Assembly: GCA_903862465.1 (NCBI GenBank)
Contig: CAIOYH010000057.1
Span: forward strand, 1-35,152
From: an uncultured bacterium
Lineage (GTDB): Bacteria > Bacteroidota > Bacteroidia > Bacteroidales > CAIWKO01
Reading direction: 5' to 3'
Length of the DNA: 35,152 bases
Position numbers and translations under genes: made by a program. A model generated the notes under the pieces. That model made no database searches. It worked only from the letters and a program-made list of their open reading frames with translations, and had not been told where the DNA came from. Every line of letters begins with the position of its first letter. The stretch's first letter is position 1. Below, piece after piece: positions 7,902-21,027 of this stretch.

Positions 7902-10258
7902 GCGACAGTAAGAAAGCCATATTAATGCGAGCTTATTTAATCTACATTTTGGTGTTGATTTTTGGTGGTATTATCCTAGGAAGGATTATTTATTTGCAAT
8001 TTGTGCAAGGCGATTATTGGTCGAAACAAGCTAGTATTGTAAACAGCAAAACTGAGGTTATAGATCCTGTTCGCGGCAACATTTTTGCTGACGATGAAAG
8101 TCTTCTAGCGACTTCGGTACCCATTTTTGAGATTCGACTCGATTTGGACTCCTCGGTTATTTCTGATACGGTGTTTAAATCAAAGATAGATTCCCTTGCT
8201 GAGAATTTGTGTCGTTTATTTGAAGGCAACAGCTTAAACAAAAAGCAATACAAAAAAGAGCTTATTAAAGGAAGGATGCAAAGCAATCGGGGGTTCTTGA
8301 TTCGAAAAAAAGCAACGTATGCAGAGCTTAAACTATTAAAGACATTCCCGATATTACGCTTGGGAAATCGTGGAGGACTTATTGTTTATACGAAAGACAG
8401 AAGAGAGCGTCCATTTAAAAATTTGGCTTCAATGACAATAGGCTACGAGCGATTAGCCGAATTCAAAGTAGAAATAAATATAAAAGCCGGAAAAATAAAA
8501 CAGGATAGGTTCGAACATTATGTGGATACCTTGTCTGAATGTTTTAGTAATTTATTTCAGGATTACAATCGCGACAGTTATAAGAAAAAGCTTACCGCTG
8601 CTTTTACTGGTAAAGGTGCTGCGGCTAGAATTGTAAAAAACATGAACGAACTTCAATTAGCAGAACTTAAAACTTTTCCGTTGATTGAAGATGATACAAT
8701 AAATATTATAAAACAAAAACAACTTACAAAATCTTATTTTGTTGGATTAGAAGGACATTATAGGAATGATCTTCGAGGAGAGCGAGGTGTTATTACCCTA
8801 AAAAAGGTTGGGAATAATAGTTGGAAAAAAATAAGTGATGAAGATTTAATAGAGCCTAAAAATGGTTGCGATTTATATACTTCCATTGATGTGAATTTAC
8901 AAGATGTTGCTCAAAACGCATTACGAAAGAGCCTAGATACTACCAATGCAGATTGGGGCTGTGTGATATTAATGGAAGTACAAACAGGATTTGTTAAGGC
9001 AATTGCGAATTTAACACGAGATAAAAATGGTGAATATCAAGAAATGCGGAATTATGCAGTGGAGGAATTATATGAACCCGGTTCCACATTTAAACTTGCT
9101 TCTGTTGTGGCGGTTTTGGAAGATAACACTTTTGATACAAATACCATTGTAAATACAGGAAAAAAGAATTACCCGGGATGGGGTACAGTCGTTGACTCCC
9201 ATGAAGATGGATATGGTAGGGTGTCATTATCAAAAGCATTTGAAAAGTCTTCAAATGTTGGGATTACTGAAATTGCCTATAGGGCTTTTGGTCATAATCC
9301 ACAGAAATTTCAACAACTGCTAGAGAAAATGGGGCTTACACAAAAATCAGGTATAGATATAGATAATGAACCACAGCCACGCATCAAAGTCAGCTATGGC
9401 GATTTGCTTGGGATTGCTTTTGGATATGCTTTGAAAGTAACACCAATGCAAGTATTAACCTTTTATAATGCCATTGCCAATAATGGAACATATATGAAGC
9501 CCATGTTTGTCAAAGAAGTTAAAAGAACCGGAGTTTCGGTAACGAAATTTAATCCTGTCGTTTTAAAGGATAAAATTTGCTCAGATGCAACCATATTGAA
9601 AATAAAAAAACTACTTGAAGGAGTTGTAATACGCGGAACAGCAACAAATATAAGGAATTCAGTATATAAAATTGCTGGCAAGACAGGAACAGCAAAAATT
9701 TATGACCCAATAACCAAAGGATATTTAAAAAGCTATGTTGCTTCTTTTGCAGGATATTTTCCTGCTGATGACCCGAAGTTCTCATGTATTGTTGTAGAAT
9801 ATAATATGAAAGGCTCTGAAATTTATGGTGCTCAAGTAGCTGCCCCCGTTTTTAAAGAGATAGCCGATAGAGTTTATGCTACCCGTGTTGACATCAAGAG
9901 CAAAGAAAGTCCTGCGCCTTCTGTTCTTTCCATACCTCTGGTTCAGGTTGGCTATAAATCAGATATTGAAACAATTTATCAATGGCTAAATTTTAAATTA
10001 GTCCCAAATGGAAGTACTTCTGATTGGGTGAGTATTTCTTCATTTAGCAACAGCATTTTCGAAAAAGACAAAACCTTTCAAAGCAATATTATCCCTAATG
10101 TTTTTACAATGAAAGCTAAGGATGCAATTTATATGCTTGAAAGTTTAGGCTTGACCGTAATAGTAAAAGGTAAAGGAACTGTATCAAGTCAATCACTGAA
10201 ACCGGGAGAAAGAATAGGAGTCAATAAACAAATAATTATAACCTTAACCGTTAGTTGA
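7898..10258 (+). CDS. ftsI: peptidoglycan transpeptidase FtsI/PBP3 with PASTA domain and duplicated pedestal segment
   Basis: Septal class B penicillin-binding protein, 786 residues, somewhat long for the Bacteroidota family. It has an N-terminal membrane helix (about 11-35), a PBP dimerisation/pedestal region starting at VRGNIFADD (58-66), and a transpeptidase domain with the active-site STFK at 396-399, SSN at 451-453 and KTGT at 595-598. A C-terminal PASTA domain follows at about 731-786. Unusually, the pedestal segment around residues 78-151 recurs at about 188-261 with a near-constant offset of 110 (LKTFPIL versus LKTFPLI; AENLCRLF versus SECFSNLF). All catalytic motifs are intact, so it should cross-link septal peptidoglycan with FtsW. 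It overlaps the ftsL-like gene by 4 bp. Confidence 0.95.
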   Translation: MSDSKKAILMRAYLIYILVLIFGGIILGRIIYLQFVQGDYWSKQASIVNSKTEVIDPVRGNIFADDESLLATSVPIFEIRLDLDSSVISDTVFKSKIDSLAENLCRLFEGNSLNKKQYKKELIKGRMQSNRGFLIRKKATYAELKLLKTFPILRLGNRGGLIVYTKDRRERPFKNLASMTIGYERLAEFKVEINIKAGKIKQDRFEHYVDTLSECFSNLFQDYNRDSYKKKLTAAFTGKGAAARIVKNMNELQLAELKTFPLIEDDTINIIKQKQLTKSYFVGLEGHYRNDLRGERGVITLKKVGNNSWKKISDEDLIEPKNGCDLYTSIDVNLQDVAQNALRKSLDTTNADWGCVILMEVQTGFVKAIANLTRDKNGEYQEMRNYAVEELYEPGSTFKLASVVAVLEDNTFDTNTIVNTGKKNYPGWGTVVDSHEDGYGRVSLSKAFEKSSNVGITEIAYRAFGHNPQKFQQLLEKMGLTQKSGIDIDNEPQPRIKVSYGDLLGIAFGYALKVTPMQVLTFYNAIANNGTYMKPMFVKEVKRTGVSVTKFNPVVLKDKICSDATILKIKKLLEGVVIRGTATNIRNSVYKIAGKTGTAKIYDPITKGYLKSYVASFAGYFPADDPKFSCIVVEYNMKGSEIYGAQVAAPVFKEIADRVYATRVDIKSKESPAPSVLSIPLVQVGYKSDIETIYQWLNFKLVPNGSTSDWVSISSFSNSIFEKDKTFQSNIIPNVFTMKAKDAIYMLESLGLTVIVKGKGTVSSQSLKPGERIGVNKQIIITLTVS

Positions 10259-10263
10259 TTTAC

Positions 10264-11721
10264 ATGAAAAAGAATCTAATAGATATATTAGTTAAAGCAG
10301 GAATCCTTGAAATAGTTGGCTCGACCGAGATTGCGATTGAGTCAATATCTTTCAATTCATCTGAAATACCTAAAGACTGTCTTTTTATTGCAATAATAGG
10401 AACAAAAGTGGATGGACATAGTTATATTCAAGATGCTATAGACAAAGGAGCAATAGCTATTGTCTGCGAAATATTTCCCGAGCAAAAAGTTCCTAATATA
10501 ACATATGTTAAAGTTCAAAACAGTAGTTTCGCCATAGGTCATATCTGTTCTAACTATTTTGATAATCCATCTCAAAAACTAAAATTGGTTGGCGTAACCG
10601 GAACGAATGGAAAAACAACCACAGCAAGTTTGCTTTATCAAATGTTTATAAAGCTAGGCTATAAAGTAGGTTTGATTTCAACCATAAGTAATATCATTAA
10701 CAACGAAATCTATCCTGCAACACACACCACTCCGGATCCTTATATTTTAAACGGACTTTTGGCAAAAATGGTTGAAATGGGTTGTGCGTATTGCTTTATG
10801 GAAGTAAGCTCTCATGCTATTTGTCAACATAGAATTGCTGGGCTAGAATTCTCAGGTGCCATCTTTTCAAATATTACACATGACCACCTTGATTATCACA
10901 AAACATTTAAGAACTACATTAAAGCTAAAAAAGGGTTCTTCGACAATTTGACTTTCAAAGCTTTTGCACTCACCAATATAGATGACATAAATGGCAGGAT
11001 TATGGTGCAGAATACCAAAGCTAAAAAATACTATTACAGTCTTCAATCACCTGCTGATTTTAAATGCAGAATCGTGGAAAATCATTTTGGAGGGATGCAA
11101 TTAAACCTTGATGGAGATAAATTTTGGTGCAGGCTTATGGGGAAATTTAATGCATATAATTTAACTGCGATCTATGGGGCAGCCCTCTTACTTGGTCAGA
11201 ATAGAGACGAAATCATAACAATATTGAGCGACTTAGAATCTGTTGAAGGTCGTCTAGAAAGTATTATTGATAGGAATAAGGTTGTTGCCATTGTTGATTA
11301 TGCCCATACTCCAGATGCTCTAAAGAATGTACTATCAACCATAGCGTACATTAGAAGCGGAAACGAAAAAATTATTACAGTCGTTGGTGCAGGTGGCGAT
11401 CGCGACAAAACAAAACGTCCTGAAATGGCTAAAATTGCCGTAAATAAGAGCGATAAAGTTGTTTTGACTTCTGATAACCCACGATACGAGGATGCTGAGA
11501 CTATCATGAACGAGATGCTTGCCGGAGTAGTTGTTTCTAAAAGGAAAAAAGTGCTAATGATTGAGAATCGTAAAGAAGCAATTAAAACGGCGTATGCCTT
11601 GGCAAATCCCGGAGATATTATATTAATAGCAGGAAAGGGGCATGAAAAATATCAAGATATTAAAGGTGTAAAAACACCATTTGATGATAAAAAAATTATT
11701 AATGACTTAATGAATCTATAA
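10264..11721 (+). CDS. murE: UDP-MurNAc-tripeptide synthetase (meso-DAP adding)
   Basis: MurE, 485 residues, adds the third residue to UDP-MurNAc-L-Ala-D-Glu with ATP in the cytoplasm. The ATP-binding GTNGKTT loop is at residues 113-119, the Mur central motifs EVSSHAI and [10 protein letters not shown] follow, and the D-N-P-R motif at 404-407 points to meso-diaminopimelate rather than lysine as substrate. The C-terminal GKGHEKYQ is also typical. A TTG at 10255 overlapping the ftsI stop could serve as a start, but the ATG at 10264 gives the usual MKKNL beginning. The gene is followed 2 bp later by mraY. Confidence 0.96.
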
Positions 11722-11723
11722 TT

Positions 11724-12980
11724 ATGTTGTACTATTTATTTGAATACTTACGCAATCATTTCGATTTCCCAGGGGCAAACATAATGCAGTACATCTCATT
11801 TCGTGCTGGATTAGCAATTATTACATCTTTGATAATATCAATGATTATAGGGAAAAGGGTAATAAATTATTTACGATACAAACAAGTTGGGGAAACTGTA
11901 CGCGATTTAGGACTGCAAGGACAAATTGAAAAACAAGGCACTCCAACTATGGGTGGCATCATCATTTTAAGTGCCATCCTTATCCCTACACTTCTTTTTG
12001 CAAAGCTTCAAAATATTTATATTATTCTCATGCTTGTGACAACAGTTTGGTTGGGAACCATTGGTTTTATTGATGATTATATTAAGGTATTTAAGAAAAA
12101 CAAAAAAGGTCTTGCAGGTAAATTTAAGATTGTTGGACAGGTGGGCTTAGGATTGATTGTTGGTTTGACTTTATATTTTAACAACTCGGTTGTGATTAAA
12201 GAACATATTAAATATACCGACTGTGTGCCTTCCCAGAATATGTTCAAAATTGAAAATTATCAGGACGTGGCGCCATCTGTTTTCTCAGGCGAATCTGTGA
12301 AATCAACAAAGACAACTATTCCATTTGTAAAAAATAATGAATTTGATTATTCATCATTATTGTCATGGTTGGGGGAAGGGTATCAAAAATGGGCTTTTTT
12401 GATATTTATACCTATAGTTATCTTTATAATTGCCGGAGTTTCCAATGGTGCAAATTTAACGGATGGATTGGATGGTCTCGCCACAGGAACCTCTGCCGTC
12501 ATTGGTGTTACTTTGGCGGTTCTAGCCTATGTTTCGGGTAATGGTTTCTTTGCAAACTACTTAAATATAATGTATATACCAAACACTGGCGAGTTAGTAA
12601 TTTTTATTGCCTCTTTCGTTGGTGCATGTATTGGCTTTTTATGGTATAATTCTTATCCGGCTCAAGTATTTATGGGCGACACAGGAAGCTTGTCCATAGG
12701 TGGAATTATTGCGGTTTTCGCCATTATTATTCGCAAGGAGCTATTGATTCCTTTGCTGTGCGGCATTTTTCTGATTCAAAGTCTTTCGGTGATTATGCAG
12801 GTTTCGTACTTTAAATATACCAAACATCGATTTGGAGAAGGTCGAAGAATATTAAAAATGTCACCCTTACATCACCATTACCAAAAATCTGGCTATCATG
12901 AATCAAAAATTGTGATTCGCTTTGTTATCATCGGCATTTTATTAGCCATATTAACTATTATAACTTTAAAGATTCGATAA
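11724..12980 (+). CDS. mraY: phospho-N-acetylmuramoyl-pentapeptide transferase
   Basis: MraY, 418 residues, transfers phospho-MurNAc-pentapeptide to undecaprenyl phosphate, making lipid I in the inner membrane. About ten membrane helices are apparent. Conserved motifs: KQGTPTMGG (about residues 71-79), [34 protein letters not shown] and [16 protein letters not shown]. The soluble stretch around residues 150-215 ([13 protein letters not shown] to SLLSWLG) is longer than in E. coli, as is common in Bacteroidota. Everything needed for catalysis seems present. It is the last intact gene before the shortened murD, 37 bp downstream. Confidence 0.96.
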
Positions 12981-13017
12981 GAAAATAATTATTTACATAT
13001 ACACTTATATACCACAT

Positions 13018-13566
13018 ATGACATTAGAAACTTTAGCATTACAAGGGAGGAACAACATATATCACACAATGGCAGCAGGTGTTAACCATCGTTTGTTTGA
13101 TATGCGCAAAACAGTAATTAAAGAAAGCATGAGTGATTTTCAAGGCATCGAACATCGCATCGAACACGTAACCAAAGTACATGGTATAGAATTTATTAAT
13201 GATTCCAGAGCCAATAATGCTAATTCCACATGGTTTGCATTAGAGAGTATGAATCGTCCTGTAATATGGATAGTAGGAGGGCTTGACAAAAATAAAGATT
13301 ACTCGATACTAAAGCCATTGGTGAAAACAAAGGTTAAGTCGATAGTATGTTTGGGAATTGACAATTCTAAGATATTTGAAGATTTTGGAGATTTAGTACC
13401 TTTAATTATCGAGACGTCATCGGCGAAAGAAGCCGTTGAAACCTCCTATAAGTTAGGTGTTATGAACGATATCGTTTTGCTTTCTCCTGCTTGTGCCAGT
13501 TTTGATTTGTTCAAAAACTATGAAGACCGCGGTATGCAATTTAAAAGAGCTATCTACGATTTATAA
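13018..13566 (+). CDS. murD: C-terminal fragment of MurD (UDP-MurNAc-L-alanine:D-glutamate ligase)
   Basis: Only 182 residues, where MurD is usually about 440-450. What remains starts at LALQGRNNIYHTMAAG, the end of the central domain, and covers the C-terminal ligase domain (FQGIEHRIEHV, IWIVGGLDKNKDYS, LSPACASFDLFKNYEDRG). The N-terminal UDP-binding domain and the whole P-loop (GTNGKT-type) domain are absent, and just 37 bp separate it from mraY. The usual NDSKATN substrate motif reads NDSRANN, changing a Lys and a Thr that contact D-glutamate in E. coli MurD. The frame itself has no stop. It cannot work alone as a ligase. It is either a deletion remnant, with MurD supplied elsewhere, or an assembly error. 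The ATG at 13018 is the only reasonable start. Confidence 0.9.
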   Translation: MTLETLALQGRNNIYHTMAAGVNHRLFDMRKTVIKESMSDFQGIEHRIEHVTKVHGIEFINDSRANNANSTWFALESMNRPVIWIVGGLDKNKDYSILKPLVKTKVKSIVCLGIDNSKIFEDFGDLVPLIIETSSAKEAVETSYKLGVMNDIVLLSPACASFDLFKNYEDRGMQFKRAIYDL

Positions 13567-13574
13567 AAATCTAT

Positions 13575-14771
13575 ATGCGTAAATTTCTGCAAAATCTGAA
13601 AGGTGATAAGGTAATTTGGGCGGTTGTACTCATACTGTCGTTGTTTTCTATATTAGCAGTATATAGTTCAACAGGCACACTTGCTTACAGAAACAAATCA
13701 GGTAATACAGAATATTATCTCATCAAACATTTATTTATCATGGTGATGGGTTTGGGCTTGATGTACTTGGCTCACCTAATTCGTTATCAATTATATTCCC
13801 GAATTTCTCAAATTGCAGTTTTTATTGCCATCCCTTTATTATTTATAACCTTAGTAACTGGTTCAAGTTTAAATGAAGCAAGCAGATGGCTTACGCTGCC
13901 GGTTATTAATATTAACTTTCAAACTTCTGACTTTGCAAAACTTGCACTCATTATTTATCTTGCACGATTAATTTCGAGAAAACAAGACCAAATCAAAGAT
14001 TTCAAAACAGGTTTCTTACCCATTATGCTTCCCGTGGTAATCATTTGTATTCTGATTCTACCTGCTAACTTCTCAACTGCAGCCATTTTATTTGCAACCT
14101 GTTTAATACTGATGTTTGTAGGGCGTGTCAGTACAAAATATATGGTCTATTTGGTTGGCATCATGATACTCACTGGAGGTATCTTTATTTTGATATTAAT
14201 GAATTCTCCAAAAAAAGGGCGTTTAGGAACATGGCAAAATCGTATTGAGACATTCTTTGGCGATGAGAAGAAGCAAAATCCCGATGAGCTCTATCAAATT
14301 AATCAATCTAAAATTGCTGTTTCAACAGGCGGAATCTTCGGTAAATTTCCGGGAAACAGTACACAACGGAATATGTTGCCTCAAGCCTATTCCGATTTTA
14401 TATATGCCATCATAATTGAAGAATACGGATTCATCGGCGGATTTATTATTCTATTTTTATACCTTATATTATTGTTTCGAGGAATTCGTATTGCCACAAA
14501 GTGTGATACAACATTTGGGTCATTGCTCGGCTTGGGTATCTGTTTCATATTAGTATTTCAAGCGATGATTAATATGGCAATTGTTGTTGACCTTTTCCCT
14601 GTAACAGGACAACCTTTGCCGTTAGTGAGTATGGGGGGTACATCCATTTGGTTCACAAGTATCGGTATCGGAATTATGTTGAGCATCAGTAAGGCAAATG
14701 AAGATACTGAAAAGCAAAATGAAGTAGAAGAATCTCAAAATAGCACAGAAAATGCAACAGCAGAAATATAA
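13575..14771 (+). CDS. ftsW: peptidoglycan polymerase FtsW
   Basis: FtsW, 398 residues, is the SEDS-family glycosyltransferase that polymerises lipid II at the septum together with FtsI. About ten membrane helices are visible. Conserved features are AVYSSTGTLAYR after the first helix, the EASRWLTLP region, QTSDFAKLALIIYLAR, the periplasmic loop with QINQSKIAVSTGGIFGK, FIYAIIIEEYGFIGG, and PVTGQPLPLVSMGGTS near the end. The C-terminal 25 residues are charged and cytosolic. It starts 8 bp after the murD fragment and its last 20 bp overlap murG. Confidence 0.96.
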   Translation: MRKFLQNLKGDKVIWAVVLILSLFSILAVYSSTGTLAYRNKSGNTEYYLIKHLFIMVMGLGLMYLAHLIRYQLYSRISQIAVFIAIPLLFITLVTGSSLNEASRWLTLPVININFQTSDFAKLALIIYLARLISRKQDQIKDFKTGFLPIMLPVVIICILILPANFSTAAILFATCLILMFVGRVSTKYMVYLVGIMILTGGIFILILMNSPKKGRLGTWQNRIETFFGDEKKQNPDELYQINQSKIAVSTGGIFGKFPGNSTQRNMLPQAYSDFIYAIIIEEYGFIGGFIILFLYLILLFRGIRIATKCDTTFGSLLGLGICFILVFQAMINMAIVVDLFPVTGQPLPLVSMGGTSIWFTSIGIGIMLSISKANEDTEKQNEVEESQNSTENATAEI

Positions 14772-15864
14772 AATAATTATAAGTGGTGGCGGAACCGGAG
14801 GTCACGTGTTTCCTGCTATTGCCATTGCAAATGCCATTATGAAAGTAAGTCCTGATACTGAAATCTTATTCGTTGGAGCGAATGGACGCATGGAGATGGA
14901 GAAAGTGCCTGAGGCAGGTTATAAAATAATAGGATTAAATATAAGCGGGTTTCAACGTAAACTCACATTCAAAAATATCACGGTACTCTTAAAACTATTG
15001 TCGAGTTTGCGAAAGGCAAAGAGCATTATCAAACAATTCAAACCCGATGCGGTGGTGGGTGTTGGTGGGTATGCAAGTGGTCCTATATTACGTATTGCAT
15101 CAAAGAAAAGAATTCCAACCATTATTCAAGAACAAAATTCCTATCCGGGAATCACTAACAAAATTCTATCCAAAAAAGTTGATCGCATTTGCGTGGCTTA
15201 TGATGGTATGGATAAATTCTTTCCTATCAGCAAAATATATGTAACTGGCAACCCTGTCCGTCAAGATATCACCAAACTACAAGGCAAACGAGAACGTGGA
15301 CTCGAGACATTTAATCTTGATGGAAGCAAAAAAACAGTCTTAATCGTGGGCGGTAGTTTGGGTGCTCGAACCATCAATGAAAGTATTGGAGCAAACTTGG
15401 AGATGTTTAAGCAAAACGATATTCAACTTATTTGGCAAACAGGAAAACCCTATTTCGAAAAAGCACAACAAGCTTGTGTCCCCTTCCAAGAATTCGGTAT
15501 TCAACCCTATGCATTTATTTCCAAGATGGATTATGCGTATGCTGCTACAGATGTTATCATCTCAAGAGCAGGTGCTATAGCTATCTCTGAAATTTGTTTA
15601 GTGCAAAAACCCGTAATCTTGGTCCCTTCGCCCAATGTGTCAGAAGATCATCAAACGAAAAATGCTTTAGCACTTTCGAACCACAATGCAGCCATATTGG
15701 TTAAAGATGTGGATGCTCAAGAAACTCTTGTCAACAAAACCATTGCATTGCTGCAAGATGACAAAACTTGTCGGGAACTCAGTGAAAACATTGCTCCTTT
15801 TGCCCATAAAAACTCAGCAGAAATTATTGCTGATATCATTCTAAGTATGATTAAAATCAAGTAA
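14752..15864 (+). CDS. murG: undecaprenyl-diphospho-MurNAc-pentapeptide GlcNAc transferase
   Basis: MurG, 370 residues, adds GlcNAc to lipid I to give lipid II at the inner face of the membrane (GT-B fold). The N-terminal GGGTGGHVFPA (residues 12-22), GVGGYASGP, EQNSYPGITN and GNPVRQDI are family signatures. The donor-binding VGGSLGARTIN and the ISRAGAIAISE / PNVSEDHQTKNA segments mark the C-terminal domain. Length is normal. The start lies in the tail of ftsW, and murC follows one base after its stop. Confidence 0.96.
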   Translation: MQQQKYKIIISGGGTGGHVFPAIAIANAIMKVSPDTEILFVGANGRMEMEKVPEAGYKIIGLNISGFQRKLTFKNITVLLKLLSSLRKAKSIIKQFKPDAVVGVGGYASGPILRIASKKRIPTIIQEQNSYPGITNKILSKKVDRICVAYDGMDKFFPISKIYVTGNPVRQDITKLQGKRERGLETFNLDGSKKTVLIVGGSLGARTINESIGANLEMFKQNDIQLIWQTGKPYFEKAQQACVPFQEFGIQPYAFISKMDYAYAATDVIISRAGAIAISEICLVQKPVILVPSPNVSEDHQTKNALALSNHNAAILVKDVDAQETLVNKTIALLQDDKTCRELSENIAPFAHKNSAEIIADIILSMIKIK

Positions 15865-15865
15865 A

Positions 15866-17224
15866 GTGAAAATAAAGGATATACATACAATTTATTTTCT
15901 CGGCATCGGAGGCATAGGCATGAGTGCTTTGGCGCGTTTCTTTAAAGCACAGGGATGCTTGGTGAGCGGCTATGACAAAACACCAACATCACTAACTCAA
16001 AAGCTGATTGAAGAAGGAATTGCTATTCATTTTGATGAAGATATCCTGCAAATTCCTACCCATGTGGATTTAGTTGTTTACACCCCTGCAATTCCTGTTT
16101 CACATGCCGAATACCAACATATCATCCATCATAACATTCCCATAAAAAAGCGTGCGGAAATATTAGGTATGATTTCATCGGATTATTTCTCCATTGCCGT
16201 GGCAGGAACCCATGGGAAGACTACTATTACGGGGTTAATTTCTCACATACTTCATACTTCTGATATCAAAATAAATGCCTTTATTGGTGGCATCGTAAAG
16301 AATTTTCAATCAAACATAGTTATATCCGACAAGGCTGAATGTATCGTTGTTGAAGCTGACGAATACGATCGTTCTTTCCTTTGGCTCAATCCCGATATTG
16401 CCATTATTTCAGCCATTGATGCCGATCATTTGGACATCTATTCAGACAAAAAGAAACTTGAAGAATCGTATCATCTTTTTGCTCAACGGATCAAACCTAA
16501 AGGCAAGCTGATTTACAAACATACGCTTTCCATTCCCATTTTGGAAGGTGTTACGTCCTATTCTTATGGTTTAGATGCAAAGGCTGATTTTTATGCTAAA
16601 GATATTTCGTTACAGAACTCTCGCTTTCATTTCACGGCTTGTCTTCTTGGTGAAGAAATTTCCATTGAGATTAAAACTCCGGGCAGACACAATATCGAAA
16701 ATGCCATTGCAGCGGCTGCCGCTTGCTATTTGCAGGGAATAAGTGTGGAGCAAATTAAGCATGGCATCCAAACCTACCAAGGGATTGCTCGGCGCTTTGA
16801 TTATCGCTTTGAAAATCCTTCAGCGATTTACATTGATGATTATGCCCATCATCCTGAAGAACTGAAAGCATTTATTAGTGCGGTTCGGGAAATGTATCCC
16901 ACAAAAAAAATCACAGGCATTTTCCAACCGCATTTGTTTTCGCGCACCTTGCATTTTGCCGACGACTTTGCTCATGTGTTGGACACACTTGATGAGGCTA
17001 TCCTACTCGATATTTATCCTGCTCGTGAACTCCCAATAGCAGGCGTTACATCCCAATTGTTATTAGACAAAATGACAATCACAAACAAAAGAATCCTTTC
17101 AAAGGACATGCTTTTGGAGGAATTAAAACATGCAAAGGTAGAAGTAATCTTAACCATAGGTGCCGGCGACATTGACCAATTAGTTCAACCCATTGAATCC
17201 ATTCTTAACAACAGATTTAAATGA
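15866..17224 (+). CDS. murC: UDP-N-acetylmuramate-L-alanine ligase
   Basis: MurC, 452 residues, attaches L-alanine to UDP-MurNAc with ATP, the first step of stem peptide synthesis. Motifs are the N-terminal FLGIGGIGMSALARF (UDP-binding), AGTHGKTTITG with its P-loop at about residues 114-119, VEADEYDRSFL, SAIDADHLDIY, the C-terminal IDDYAHHPEEL and FQPHLFSRT. The start is GTG at 15866, one base after murG. No in-frame ATG precedes the conserved N-terminus. The stop overlaps the ftsQ start (ATGA). The gene is complete, in contrast to murD in the same operon. Confidence 0.96.
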   Translation: MKIKDIHTIYFLGIGGIGMSALARFFKAQGCLVSGYDKTPTSLTQKLIEEGIAIHFDEDILQIPTHVDLVVYTPAIPVSHAEYQHIIHHNIPIKKRAEILGMISSDYFSIAVAGTHGKTTITGLISHILHTSDIKINAFIGGIVKNFQSNIVISDKAECIVVEADEYDRSFLWLNPDIAIISAIDADHLDIYSDKKKLEESYHLFAQRIKPKGKLIYKHTLSIPILEGVTSYSYGLDAKADFYAKDISLQNSRFHFTACLLGEEISIEIKTPGRHNIENAIAAAAACYLQGISVEQIKHGIQTYQGIARRFDYRFENPSAIYIDDYAHHPEELKAFISAVREMYPTKKITGIFQPHLFSRTLHFADDFAHVLDTLDEAILLDIYPARELPIAGVTSQLLLDKMTITNKRILSKDMLLEELKHAKVEVILTIGAGDIDQLVQPIESILNNRFK

Positions 17225-18030: not shown

Positions 18031-19320
18031 ATGGAAACATCAGAAATCATTGTAGGTTTAGACATCGGCACCACCAAAATAGCTGCTATCGTAGGTCGTC
18101 AAAGTCAATATGGTAAAATTGAAATCCTCGGCTATGGTTCTGCCGAATCTATCGGGGTGAAACGCGGCGTGGTCATCAATATTGATAATACCGTAGAGTC
18201 AATCAAAGCTGCTGTGAAAGAAGCTGAGGCAAAATCAGGGGTGAATATTAAATGTATCAATGTGGGTATTGCAGGTCAACACATCAAAAGTCTGCAACAT
18301 CGTGGGTCTATCATCCGAAGCACTACGCATCAAGAAATTAATCAAGACGACATCAATAGATTGATTGACGATATGTATCGTTTGGTGATGCAACCCGGGG
18401 AAGAAATCATCCACGTGATTCCGCAAGAATATATTGTTGACAAAGAAGCAGGCATTCGCAAACCTATCGGTATGGCAGGCGTATGCTTGGAAGCTAATTT
18501 CCATATCATCACAGGTTTGGTTTCTGCTGTGCAAAACATCAATCGTTGTGTGGACCGTGCCGGATTGGAAATCGTTGACCAAATTCTTGAACCTTTGGCT
18601 TCTGCTGATGCTGTTTTGAGTGATGAGGAAAAAGAAGCAGGCGTTGTGTTGGTGGATATAGGTGGTGGCACTACTGACATCGCCATCTTCCAAGACGACA
18701 TCATTCGCCACACTGCCGTTATTCCTTTGGGTGGCGACATCATCACCGAAGATATTAAGGAAGGATGCACCATCATCAAAAAAAATGCTGAAAAACTTAA
18801 AGTGCTTTACGGTTCTGCGCTCGCAAGCGAAAGCAAAGCCGACGAATTCGTTTCCATCCCCGGTTTACAAGGACGTCCTGCTAAGGAAATTAGTTTGAAG
18901 AATCTTGCAAGCATCATCGAAGCGCGTATCTCTGAAATCATTGAATACGTTTATAATGAAATCCGTTCCTCGGGCTACGAACGCAAACTCATTGCAGGTA
19001 TCGTGCTCACGGGGGGAGGCGCTCAGCTCAAAAACATCGTTCAACTCACGGAATTCCTCACGGGAATGGACACCCGCATTGGTTATCCCAATCATCATTT
19101 AGCCGAAAACGTTCCTGAAGCTATGGCTTTACCCATGTATGCAACGGGTATTGGTTTGGTGATTCGCGGATTGGCGAAACAACCCCCCATCACTCAAAAT
19201 CCTGAGCCTGAAAAACCCAAGGAAGAACCCATACAAACACATTCGAGAAAAACAGGAGGCAGTTTCTTTGATTCTTTGTTCAAAAAAGGAAAGCACTTTT
19301 TTGATGATGATGTTAACTAA
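18031..19320 (+). CDS. ftsA: cell division protein FtsA
   Basis: FtsA, 429 residues, is an actin-like ATPase that ties FtsZ filaments to the membrane and recruits downstream division proteins. Phosphate 1 (GLDIGTTKIAAIVG, residues 9-22), phosphate 2 (VVLVDIGGGTTDIAIF) and the adenosine motif (GIVLTGGGAQLKNI) are all present, as is the 1C-type subdomain (INVGIAGQHIKSLQHRG). The C-terminus ends in an amphipathic stretch, SFFDSLFKKGKHFF, suited to membrane binding. It is complete. ftsZ, which normally follows in Bacteroidota, is not there: ispG converges from the opposite strand 24 bp later. Confidence 0.96.
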   Translation: METSEIIVGLDIGTTKIAAIVGRQSQYGKIEILGYGSAESIGVKRGVVINIDNTVESIKAAVKEAEAKSGVNIKCINVGIAGQHIKSLQHRGSIIRSTTHQEINQDDINRLIDDMYRLVMQPGEEIIHVIPQEYIVDKEAGIRKPIGMAGVCLEANFHIITGLVSAVQNINRCVDRAGLEIVDQILEPLASADAVLSDEEKEAGVVLVDIGGGTTDIAIFQDDIIRHTAVIPLGGDIITEDIKEGCTIIKKNAEKLKVLYGSALASESKADEFVSIPGLQGRPAKEISLKNLASIIEARISEIIEYVYNEIRSSGYERKLIAGIVLTGGGAQLKNIVQLTEFLTGMDTRIGYPNHHLAENVPEAMALPMYATGIGLVIRGLAKQPPITQNPEPEKPKEEPIQTHSRKTGGSFFDSLFKKGKHFFDDDVN

Positions 19321-19344
19321 GCGGATCCCACCACCCTTTCTTAT

Positions 19345-21027
19345 TTATTCGTCCACCCAATCGCCATTTCCTTTAATCAACTGAATCAATTCATCCAAAG
19401 CGATGGATTCATCAATATTTTTGTGTACTAAGTTTCTACCTTTATATAAGTTTACTTTCTGCATCCCTGAACCCACATAGCCATAATCAGCGTCAGCCAT
19501 CTCGCCCGGACCGTTGACGATGCAGCCCATCACACCAATTTTGAGGTGTTTCAGATGCGATAGTCGCTCGCTAAGTTTTTTCAGTGTGCCTTCCACATCA
19601 TAAGACGTTCTGCCGCAAGTGGGGCAGGCGATGAACTCCGCTTTTACGCGCCGCAATCCCAAGGCTTGCCATAACGCAAACATCAAATCGGACACGGAAG
19701 GATGATGGGGCGCATCTATGCAGATACCATGTATCAAACCATCGGTCAGGAAGAAAGCAAATTCGGCGGAAGCCACCAAGGTCAAAGTATCATCATTCTG
19801 ATGCAAGTATTTCTTATAAAGGACCAAAGGCTGACGGTTTCCCAAAGCCTTCCATGCGAAGAGTTTTCGTCGGGCTTCATGCAAATCGGCACAAGTACTG
19901 ATATCATATAGGATAATCTTTCGCTCATCCAAAGTTGTACTCGCAGGCTTGAAATCAGCAGCATCTATCAAGACATAATCAACATTGGATGCATCGGAAA
20001 ACCGTTTAAGCATGCCGTTCTGCATATCATAATAATAATCGGGGGCGAATTTTGTTGCAGCAGCGGGAGTCTGTTGGGTAGTGATGGTTGCGGGAGGATA
20101 CATGCTGCCAATGCCATTGACGGCTATTGTGTCCGCCTTGTTGAAGCTGTAGCCTTGATGAAACACATTATCCGAAAGCGTTCTGTAGGAAGCAAGTTGC
20201 GTACACAATTGTTTCGCCACAGCTATTTCGTTTACAGGGTTTTCGGTGAGCGACACGCGCAGGGTATCGCCCAAACCTTCCATAAGCAATTCGCCAATAC
20301 CTGCGGCAGATTTGATGCGGGCGTCGGCTCCTGCACCGGCTTCGGTCACACCCAAATGCAAGGGATAATCGTAGCCAAGCGCCGTCATGCGGGCTGCCAA
20401 CAAACGATAGGAATAAATCATGGTTTTCACATTGCTCGACTTCATCGAAAGCACTAAATTATGAAACCCATGCCCGACAAACATCGCAATAAATTCGAGC
20501 GCAGAAACCACCATCCCTTCGGGTGTATCGCCATAACGTTCGGTGATGCGGGCTGATAAGGAACCATGATTGACACCCACGCGAATGGCAGTGCCATAGT
20601 CTTTACAAATGGAAATCAAAGGTAATAGGCGCGTGCTGATTTTGTCAAGCTCTTGTAGATAGGCACTCTCGGTATAGTTCAATCCTGCGGAAGCTTGTTT
20701 GTCCACATAATTTCCCGGATTGATGCGCACTTTGTGAACGTAGCGAGCGGCAATTTCGGCAGCTTCGGGCTGAAAATGTATGTCGGCAATCAGTGGCACA
20801 TTGCATCCTCTGAGCAACAATTCGGCTTTGATGATGCGCAAGTTCTCGGCTTCCGCTTTGTTGCGAGCCGTGATACGCACCATTTCGCAACCCGCATCCA
20901 CCAATGCCAAGGTTTGTTTCACCGTAGCTTCCGTGTCTGCCGTGTTGGTGTTGGTCATAGATTGGATGCGCACGGGATTCGCGCCGCCCAAAGCCAATTT
21001 GCCAATATGTAGTTCTCGAGTTATCAA
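19345..21027 (-). CDS. ispG: 4-hydroxy-3-methylbut-2-en-1-yl diphosphate synthase, three-domain type
   Basis: IspG (GcpE), 560 residues, converts MEcPP to HMBPP in the non-mevalonate isoprenoid pathway. It is the long form found in Bacteroidota, chlamydiae and plants. The N-terminal TIM barrel (about 1-265; NPVRIQSMTNTNT, RINPGNY, GVNHGSLS) is followed by an inserted domain (about 275-460). The C-terminal 4Fe-4S domain has C468-x2-C471, C502 and E509 (CPTCG; MGCIVNGPGE). No in-frame ATG exists between a good promoter box at 21071-21078 and the conserved start. TTG at 21027 is the best start, with an ATT a few codons upstream also conceivable. It converges on ftsA. Confidence 0.95.
   Translation of the reverse strand: MITRELHIGKLALGGANPVRIQSMTNTNTADTEATVKQTLALVDAGCEMVRITARNKAEAENLRIIKAELLLRGCNVPLIADIHFQPEAAEIAARYVHKVRINPGNYVDKQASAGLNYTESAYLQELDKISTRLLPLISICKDYGTAIRVGVNHGSLSARITERYGDTPEGMVVSALEFIAMFVGHGFHNLVLSMKSSNVKTMIYSYRLLAARMTALGYDYPLHLGVTEAGAGADARIKSAAGIGELLMEGLGDTLRVSLTENPVNEIAVAKQLCTQLASYRTLSDNVFHQGYSFNKADTIAVNGIGSMYPPATITTQQTPAAATKFAPDYYYDMQNGMLKRFSDASNVDYVLIDAADFKPASTTLDERKIILYDISTCADLHEARRKLFAWKALGNRQPLVLYKKYLHQNDDTLTLVASAEFAFFLTDGLIHGICIDAPHHPSVSDLMFALWQALGLRRVKAEFIACPTCGRTSYDVEGTLKKLSERLSHLKHLKIGVMGCIVNGPGEMADADYGYVGSGMQKVNLYKGRNLVHKNIDESIALDELIQLIKGNGDWVDE

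Follow-up and report, generated by a model that had tools for sequence, protein, structure and literature searches.

Repeated truncation of murD to a conserved C-terminal gene in the dcw operon of a Bacteroidota order

In the dcw operon of an uncultured Bacteroidota bacterium, the slot between mraY and ftsW is occupied by a stand-alone gene for the C-terminal part of MurD (here called MurD-C). Genes of this kind are truncated forms of canonical murD, and the truncation arose repeatedly within the order, at one shared internal methionine, a conclusion we hold with very high confidence, and MurD-C is under purifying selection while its ATP- and D-Glu-binding residues decay.

The window, that is, the whole 35,152-nucleotide stretch of DNA analyzed, includes the following features:
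10255..11721, forward strand: murE, intact, of the dcw operon (NF001126, 605 bits)
11724..12980, forward strand: mraY, the 5' neighbor adjoining MurD-C
12981..13017, forward strand: A+T-rich 37-bp junction from the mraY stop to the MurD-C start, the site of the missing 264 N-terminal codons
13018..13566, forward strand: MurD-C, stand-alone MurD C-terminal part of 182 amino acids, equal to residues 265 to 446 of the MurD of a congener, G001 (profile matches, AlphaFold2 model)
13575..14771, forward strand: ftsW, the 3' neighbor adjoining MurD-C
14752..15864, forward strand: murG, intact, of the dcw operon (synteny with relatives)
15866..17224, forward strand: murC, intact, of the dcw operon (TIGR01082, 391 bits)
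Farther along (18031 to 21027), ftsA is followed by a convergent, putative IspG-like gene, named from sequence, and not by ftsZ.

A preliminary description of the window had held that the gene encodes only about the last 180 residues of MurD, that 37 bp separate it from mraY, and that roughly 260 codons are missing, all of which was borne out: the 182-residue open reading frame (ORF) gave matches to the MurD C terminus only, mraY ends at 12980 ahead of an ATG at 13018, and 264 residues are lacking relative to the 446-residue MurD of G001, where mraY is followed in the same slot, after 15 bp, by full-length murD. Against the murD model TIGR01087, the gene aligned to positions 264 to 439 of 441 with 165.7 bits, under the membership cutoff of 211.95 bits, and it scored 35.9 bits against Pfam Mur_ligase_C (PF02875), above the gathering cutoff of 28.4 bits. 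Profile searches of the ORF found no match to the MurD N-terminal or middle domain, and the UDP-binding domain, the P-loop GSNGK[ST]T, and the catalytic NxTxDH motif and lysine are absent from it, with 37 bp left to mraY; we infer that D-Glu ligase activity by MurD-C alone is structurally excluded. No N-terminal-only piece of MurD was found in the genome, which speaks against the earlier suggestion of a separate ATPase half acting in trans. The break had also been taken for a clean domain boundary, and it lies off the border: about 35 middle-domain residues remain, beginning at a conserved Met before the GxHN motif, and the PF02875 match begins at residue 46. As first described, NDSRANN stands in place of NDSKATN and SPACASFDLFKNYEDRG is retained; the canonical lysine is present at K348 (Escherichia coli numbering). 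The AlphaFold2 model of the window MurD-C (pLDDT 82; N-terminal 40 residues uncertain) had its best PDB matches in the MurD C-terminal domain (Foldseek E value of 1.7e-15 to 7ti7), and the model of a much diverged MurD-C, with 28% identity to MurD, still matched that domain best. Judging from these predicted models, the fold of MurD-C is retained and its chemistry is lost.

The "other MurD" expected by the preliminary description does exist, as the single full-length homologue in the window genome (contig C18), but its residues and its pairing with MurL mark it as a probable L-glutamate ligase of the MurD2 type, in a genome where MurI is absent by profile search. The pair is located as follows:
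C18:31781-34461 of the window genome (L009:9776-12513): MurL-MurD2 pair
The murD2 gene is directly 3' of a gene for a 461-residue protein that matched NF041275, a Xanthomonadales-specific model, with 256 bits (E value of 4.5e-76, 385 of 447 positions), short of the curated cutoff of 700 bits; by sequence it is a MurL homologue with putative epimerase activity. In MurD2 of Xanthomonas oryzae, specificity for L-Glu is set by a Glu and an Arg that occupy the positions of Asp182 and Lys348 in the E. coli enzyme (PMC8788868). Both marker residues are present in the C18 protein, and among 20 aligned MurD2 sequences Glu was found at D182 in 19 and Arg at K348 in all, the exception, G037, combining Asp with Arg. 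Considering the Glu/Arg pair, the adjacent murL, and the lack of MurI, which together assign the C18 gene to MurD2, the ligase step has very probably moved to MurD2 and MurL in the window genome. The host resembles Xanthomonas, with adjacent murL and murD2, the Glu/Arg pair, and no MurI, whereas the published listing of this pathway covers Gamma- and Alphaproteobacteria and actinobacteria, leaving Bacteroidota unmentioned and MurD-C undescribed (PMC8788868). Within the order, MurL homologues were detected in 94 of 294 genomes and MurI above the family cutoff in 186, none of which had MurL; MurL was absent from all sampled genomes of other orders of the class. Five genomes (G002, G078, G168, G239, and G273) have a canonical full MurD and neither MurL nor a strong MurI match. 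In family f79, MurL and MurD2 are apparently fused in a single frame of 885 to 921 codons (G082 [L168], G170, G243, and G299), and the fused ORF of G082 was read out as 876 amino acids.

To describe the distribution of MurD-C, the same 294 genomes were surveyed and the loci then read out, with MurD-C at contig edges excluded (look-alikes in G055, G148, G009, G107, and G292 were left out). A stand-alone MurD-C of about 182 residues was found in 41 genomes from 20 families, comprising 39 MurL-containing genomes of the survey, G018, and G003; the nearest named MurD sequences were mostly from Bacteroidales/Marinilabiliales contigs, which makes the order probably Bacteroidales-like. The gene is directly 5' of ftsW in 41/41, often close to or overlapping it, and 3' of mraY wherever the contig includes mraY; in G008, whose contig ends 163 bp 5' of MurD-C, an in-frame stop precedes the ATG. 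Internal stops were found in 0/41, lengths were mostly 176 to 190 residues, and the start column coincides with a conserved Met in 31/41, the same Met being present in 66 of 72 full-length MurDs. Loci with MurD-C only were found in 39/94 genomes with MurL versus 1/200 without it (Fisher P = 2e-21, uncorrected for shared ancestry). However, 49 MurL-containing genomes without MurI above the cutoff (e.g., G001, G029, G043, and G191) retain a full dcw MurD, and thus a genome with MurL need not lose the ligase part. All catalytic motifs were intact in those full-length copies that were read, and the idea that they are dead was rejected. The six other MurL-containing genomes are G023 and G127, without dcw mraY in the assembly; G059, G107, and G292, cut by contig ends; and G080, in which mraY is outside the dcw cluster and no MurD-C was found. 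All truncated genomes except G018 have MurL or, for G003, MurD2. G018 (L054, 98% complete) retains MurD-C, while full MurD, MurD2, MurL, and MurI were not found in it; its dcw cluster lacks murC. A further candidate, L210:1800-3046 (MAG NC_groundwater_323), looked truncated and proved to be a complete murD whose reading frame is broken by a frameshift near residue 245; this position is close to the usual truncation start, and the frameshift may be a sequencing error.

This recurrence bears on an assembly deletion, which had been raised for the locus. The window genome is a 4.2-Mb, 230-contig assembly, 96.5% complete with 1.7% contamination, for which a collapsed deletion, or a MurD2 gene binned from a contaminant, could be imagined. 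Such an artefact is practically excluded, since G003, of the same genus, has the same gene (97% identity) together with MurD2, the same form is present at the same place in 39 others, some on long contigs (5.26 Mb in G153), and the congener G001 has a MurL-MurD2 pair with 60 to 65% identity to that of the window genome.

Comparison with close relatives, another check proposed at the outset, gave a mixed picture, with G003 truncated likewise and the congeners G001 and G002 carrying full-length murD with 82% and 69% identity, respectively, over the retained part. In a 37-row tree, a single clade of truncated rows was rejected (p-AU of 3e-6), and in f1, f50, f73, f113, and f13 truncated rows fall within supported family clades that also contain full-length relatives; a 114-row tree needs 13 changes. 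Domains, once lost, cannot be regained at the same locus, so these results indicate separate truncations, barring whole-gene replacement by transfer. MurD-C descends from canonical MurD (PDB 1UAG), with which it shares the operon slot and the C-terminal fold, and differs from it in lacking the UDP-binding domain, the P-loop, and the catalytic His and Lys, with the HN histidine lost in 40/41.

Selection on the truncated genes was assessed by dN/dS (YN00), which was well measured only for a few close pairs, the others being saturated. The fragment itself, for which this calculation had been proposed, gave 0.042 (window genome versus G003), and the other closest pairs gave 0.061 (G101-G253), 0.15, and 0.23. 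The residues under constraint are not those of catalysis. In full-length MurD, the HN histidine, Lys319, Thr321, Lys348, and Ser415 are invariant, whereas in truncated MurD-C they are retained in 1/41, 24/41, 23/41, 11/41, and 27/41, respectively, so the ATP-side histidine and the D-Glu lysine (Lys348) are both mostly lost, and D-Glu-contact residues have almost entirely disappeared in deep lineages. Retained in the truncated genes are Asp317 and Phe175 (each 41/41) and Trp84, Ile85, and Val106 (each 40/41); Trp72 and Trp84 of MurD-C are absent from E. coli MurD and from MurD2, and many of the truncated genes, like many of the tandem copies described below, have the motifs SPxC.S and Y..RG. 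Such decay of catalytic residues, in genomes where MurD2/MurL covers the ligase role, is what would be expected of a murD rotting after their takeover, its C-terminal part left by chance. We consider this very improbable: frames are intact in 41/41, length is near constant, the start Met is the same, the truncation recurs in several separate lineages, dN/dS of 0.04 to 0.23 contradicts decay and a pseudogene, and no remnants with other end points were seen, although the query was the C-terminal part and N-terminal-only remnants would escape it. The retention part of the earlier proposal of a retained new role finds good support in the recurrence of the truncation, in its low dN/dS, and in the pattern of conserved residues, the role itself being a matter of interpretation.

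Separate MurD-C genes also occur beside an intact murD. A survey of the class, covering 90 genomes and named contigs, revealed 29 loci in other orders in which full murD is followed by a separate MurD-C gene and then ftsW, e.g., in Crocinitomicaceae bacterium RS467:
L175, L178-L180, L182, L184, L185, L191, L199, L202, L203, L206, L207, and L284-L299: tandem MurD-C loci
The HN histidine is lost in these tandem copies too, and the genomes carrying them have no MurL. They form groups of their own, apart from the truncated genes, and an origin of the window MurD-C from tandem genes was rejected, considering this separation and the placement of the window gene among full-length MurD sequences from its genus.

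The shared start of the truncated genes, Met265, was also considered within full-length murD. Bacteroidota are without Shine-Dalgarno sequences, and initiation is favored by an A at -3 and by weakly structured mRNA (PMC6847099). Among 72 full-length murD genes, synonymous A-excess above 2 SD was observed only at the true start and at residues ∼250 to 272 (at Met265, z of 9.45 for all 72 and 7.5 for one gene per family); RNA around Met265 is less folded than in synonymous shuffles (P = 3e-10), and A is at -3 of Met265 in 74% of genes versus ∼35% at other internal Mets. The strongest A peaks of murC, murE, mraY, ftsW, and murD2 are at gene starts or ends, with smaller internal peaks (z ≤ 3.6), and the MurD2 site equivalent to Met265 has no A-excess (z of 0.03). 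This signature resembles an internal translation start, and MurD-C may then be a second product of murD. The prediction that genomes with tandem MurD-C lose the signature failed, a weaker A-excess persisting there (z of 3.9, n = 27), and other causes, such as slow codons at the domain border or an internal promoter, are thus possible. We tentatively raise the possibility that murD yields two products throughout the class Bacteroidia, MurD itself and, from Met265, a MurD-C that would serve as a distinct, non-catalytic part in wall-precursor synthesis. Lineages would differ in the source of this MurD-C, which would be an internal start, a separate tandem gene, or truncated murD. The A-rich start-like sequence at Met265, together with the constant operon slot, often near or overlapping ftsW, could also be expected if the stretch were kept as DNA or RNA (translation coupling or a promoter between mraY and ftsW) rather than as protein. 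That is improbable, as dN/dS is far less than 1 and the amino acid sequence is conserved, with the fold retained even at ∼28% identity, both of which indicate selection on the protein.

A non-ligase function of MurD-C is likely. Our preferred reading, held with moderate confidence, is that MurD-C has been kept in the wall-precursor complex as a non-catalytic component, with ligase work done by MurD2/MurL. Once that work had moved, selection on the N-terminal and ATP-binding domains of MurD would have lapsed, and the C-terminal domain would have been retained for a second, non-catalytic job; if MurD-C was perhaps already made from Met265 inside full-length murD, the upstream part could have been deleted at little cost. 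The likeliest job would be binding of membrane-side partners of the precursor complex (MurG, MraY, MreB, FtsW, or other Mur ligases), by which MurD-C would keep the complex, or the flow of substrate through it, together. Such a partner-binding role, to which we give slightly less than an even chance, is suggested by the operon position, the conserved non-catalytic face, and reports on Thermotoga maritima, whose MurD binds MurG and MreB (Favini-Stabile 2013, cited in PMC6420597). The scaffolded Mur complexes of T. maritima and Bordetella pertussis offer the type of role proposed here, although the enzymes there are full length and their partner binding is not known to lie in the C-terminal domain alone (PMC6420597).

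The main rival to partner binding is a ligand-binding or regulatory role, in which MurD-C would bind UDP-MurNAc-dipeptide or glutamate, or dock on MurD2 or a different Mur ligase, whose activity it would change. Invariant Asp317 in the truncated forms, the frequent SPxC.S and Y..RG motifs in truncated and tandem copies, and the company of MurL (or MurD2 in G003) everywhere except in G018 are in keeping with it. We regard it as unlikely given the losses at K348, K319, and T321, nearly complete in deep lineages, the retention of MurD-C in G018 without MurD2 or MurL, and the tandem copies in genomes lacking MurL. Under either role, and under the partner binding that we prefer, MurD-C would join other non-ligase relatives of Mur ligases, among which is the MurE-like subunit of plastid RNA polymerase. 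The MurD-C model gave weak matches to plastid polymerase entries (8ras_Q, 8qma_O, and 8w9z_N; E value of 9e-5); this subunit likewise has a Mur-ligase fold in a non-ligase role, but it belongs to a different family and the match, a weak one, involves a different part of the protein.

Mur ligases are antibacterial targets. In the open-access literature, we found no description of a duplicated or truncated MurD, of a stand-alone or tandem MurD-C, or of an internal murD start. The MurD2-MurL route, reviewed for Proteobacteria and actinobacteria (PMC8788868), is now seen in about one-third of the sampled genomes of one Bacteroidota order. Here nature has run its own test, repeatedly removing the ligase portion of MurD while keeping the remainder, which sets the chemistry of the enzyme apart from a second function. 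Confirmation would point to the part of MurD that has a non-catalytic role and would make the long-debated Mur enzyme complex directly testable.
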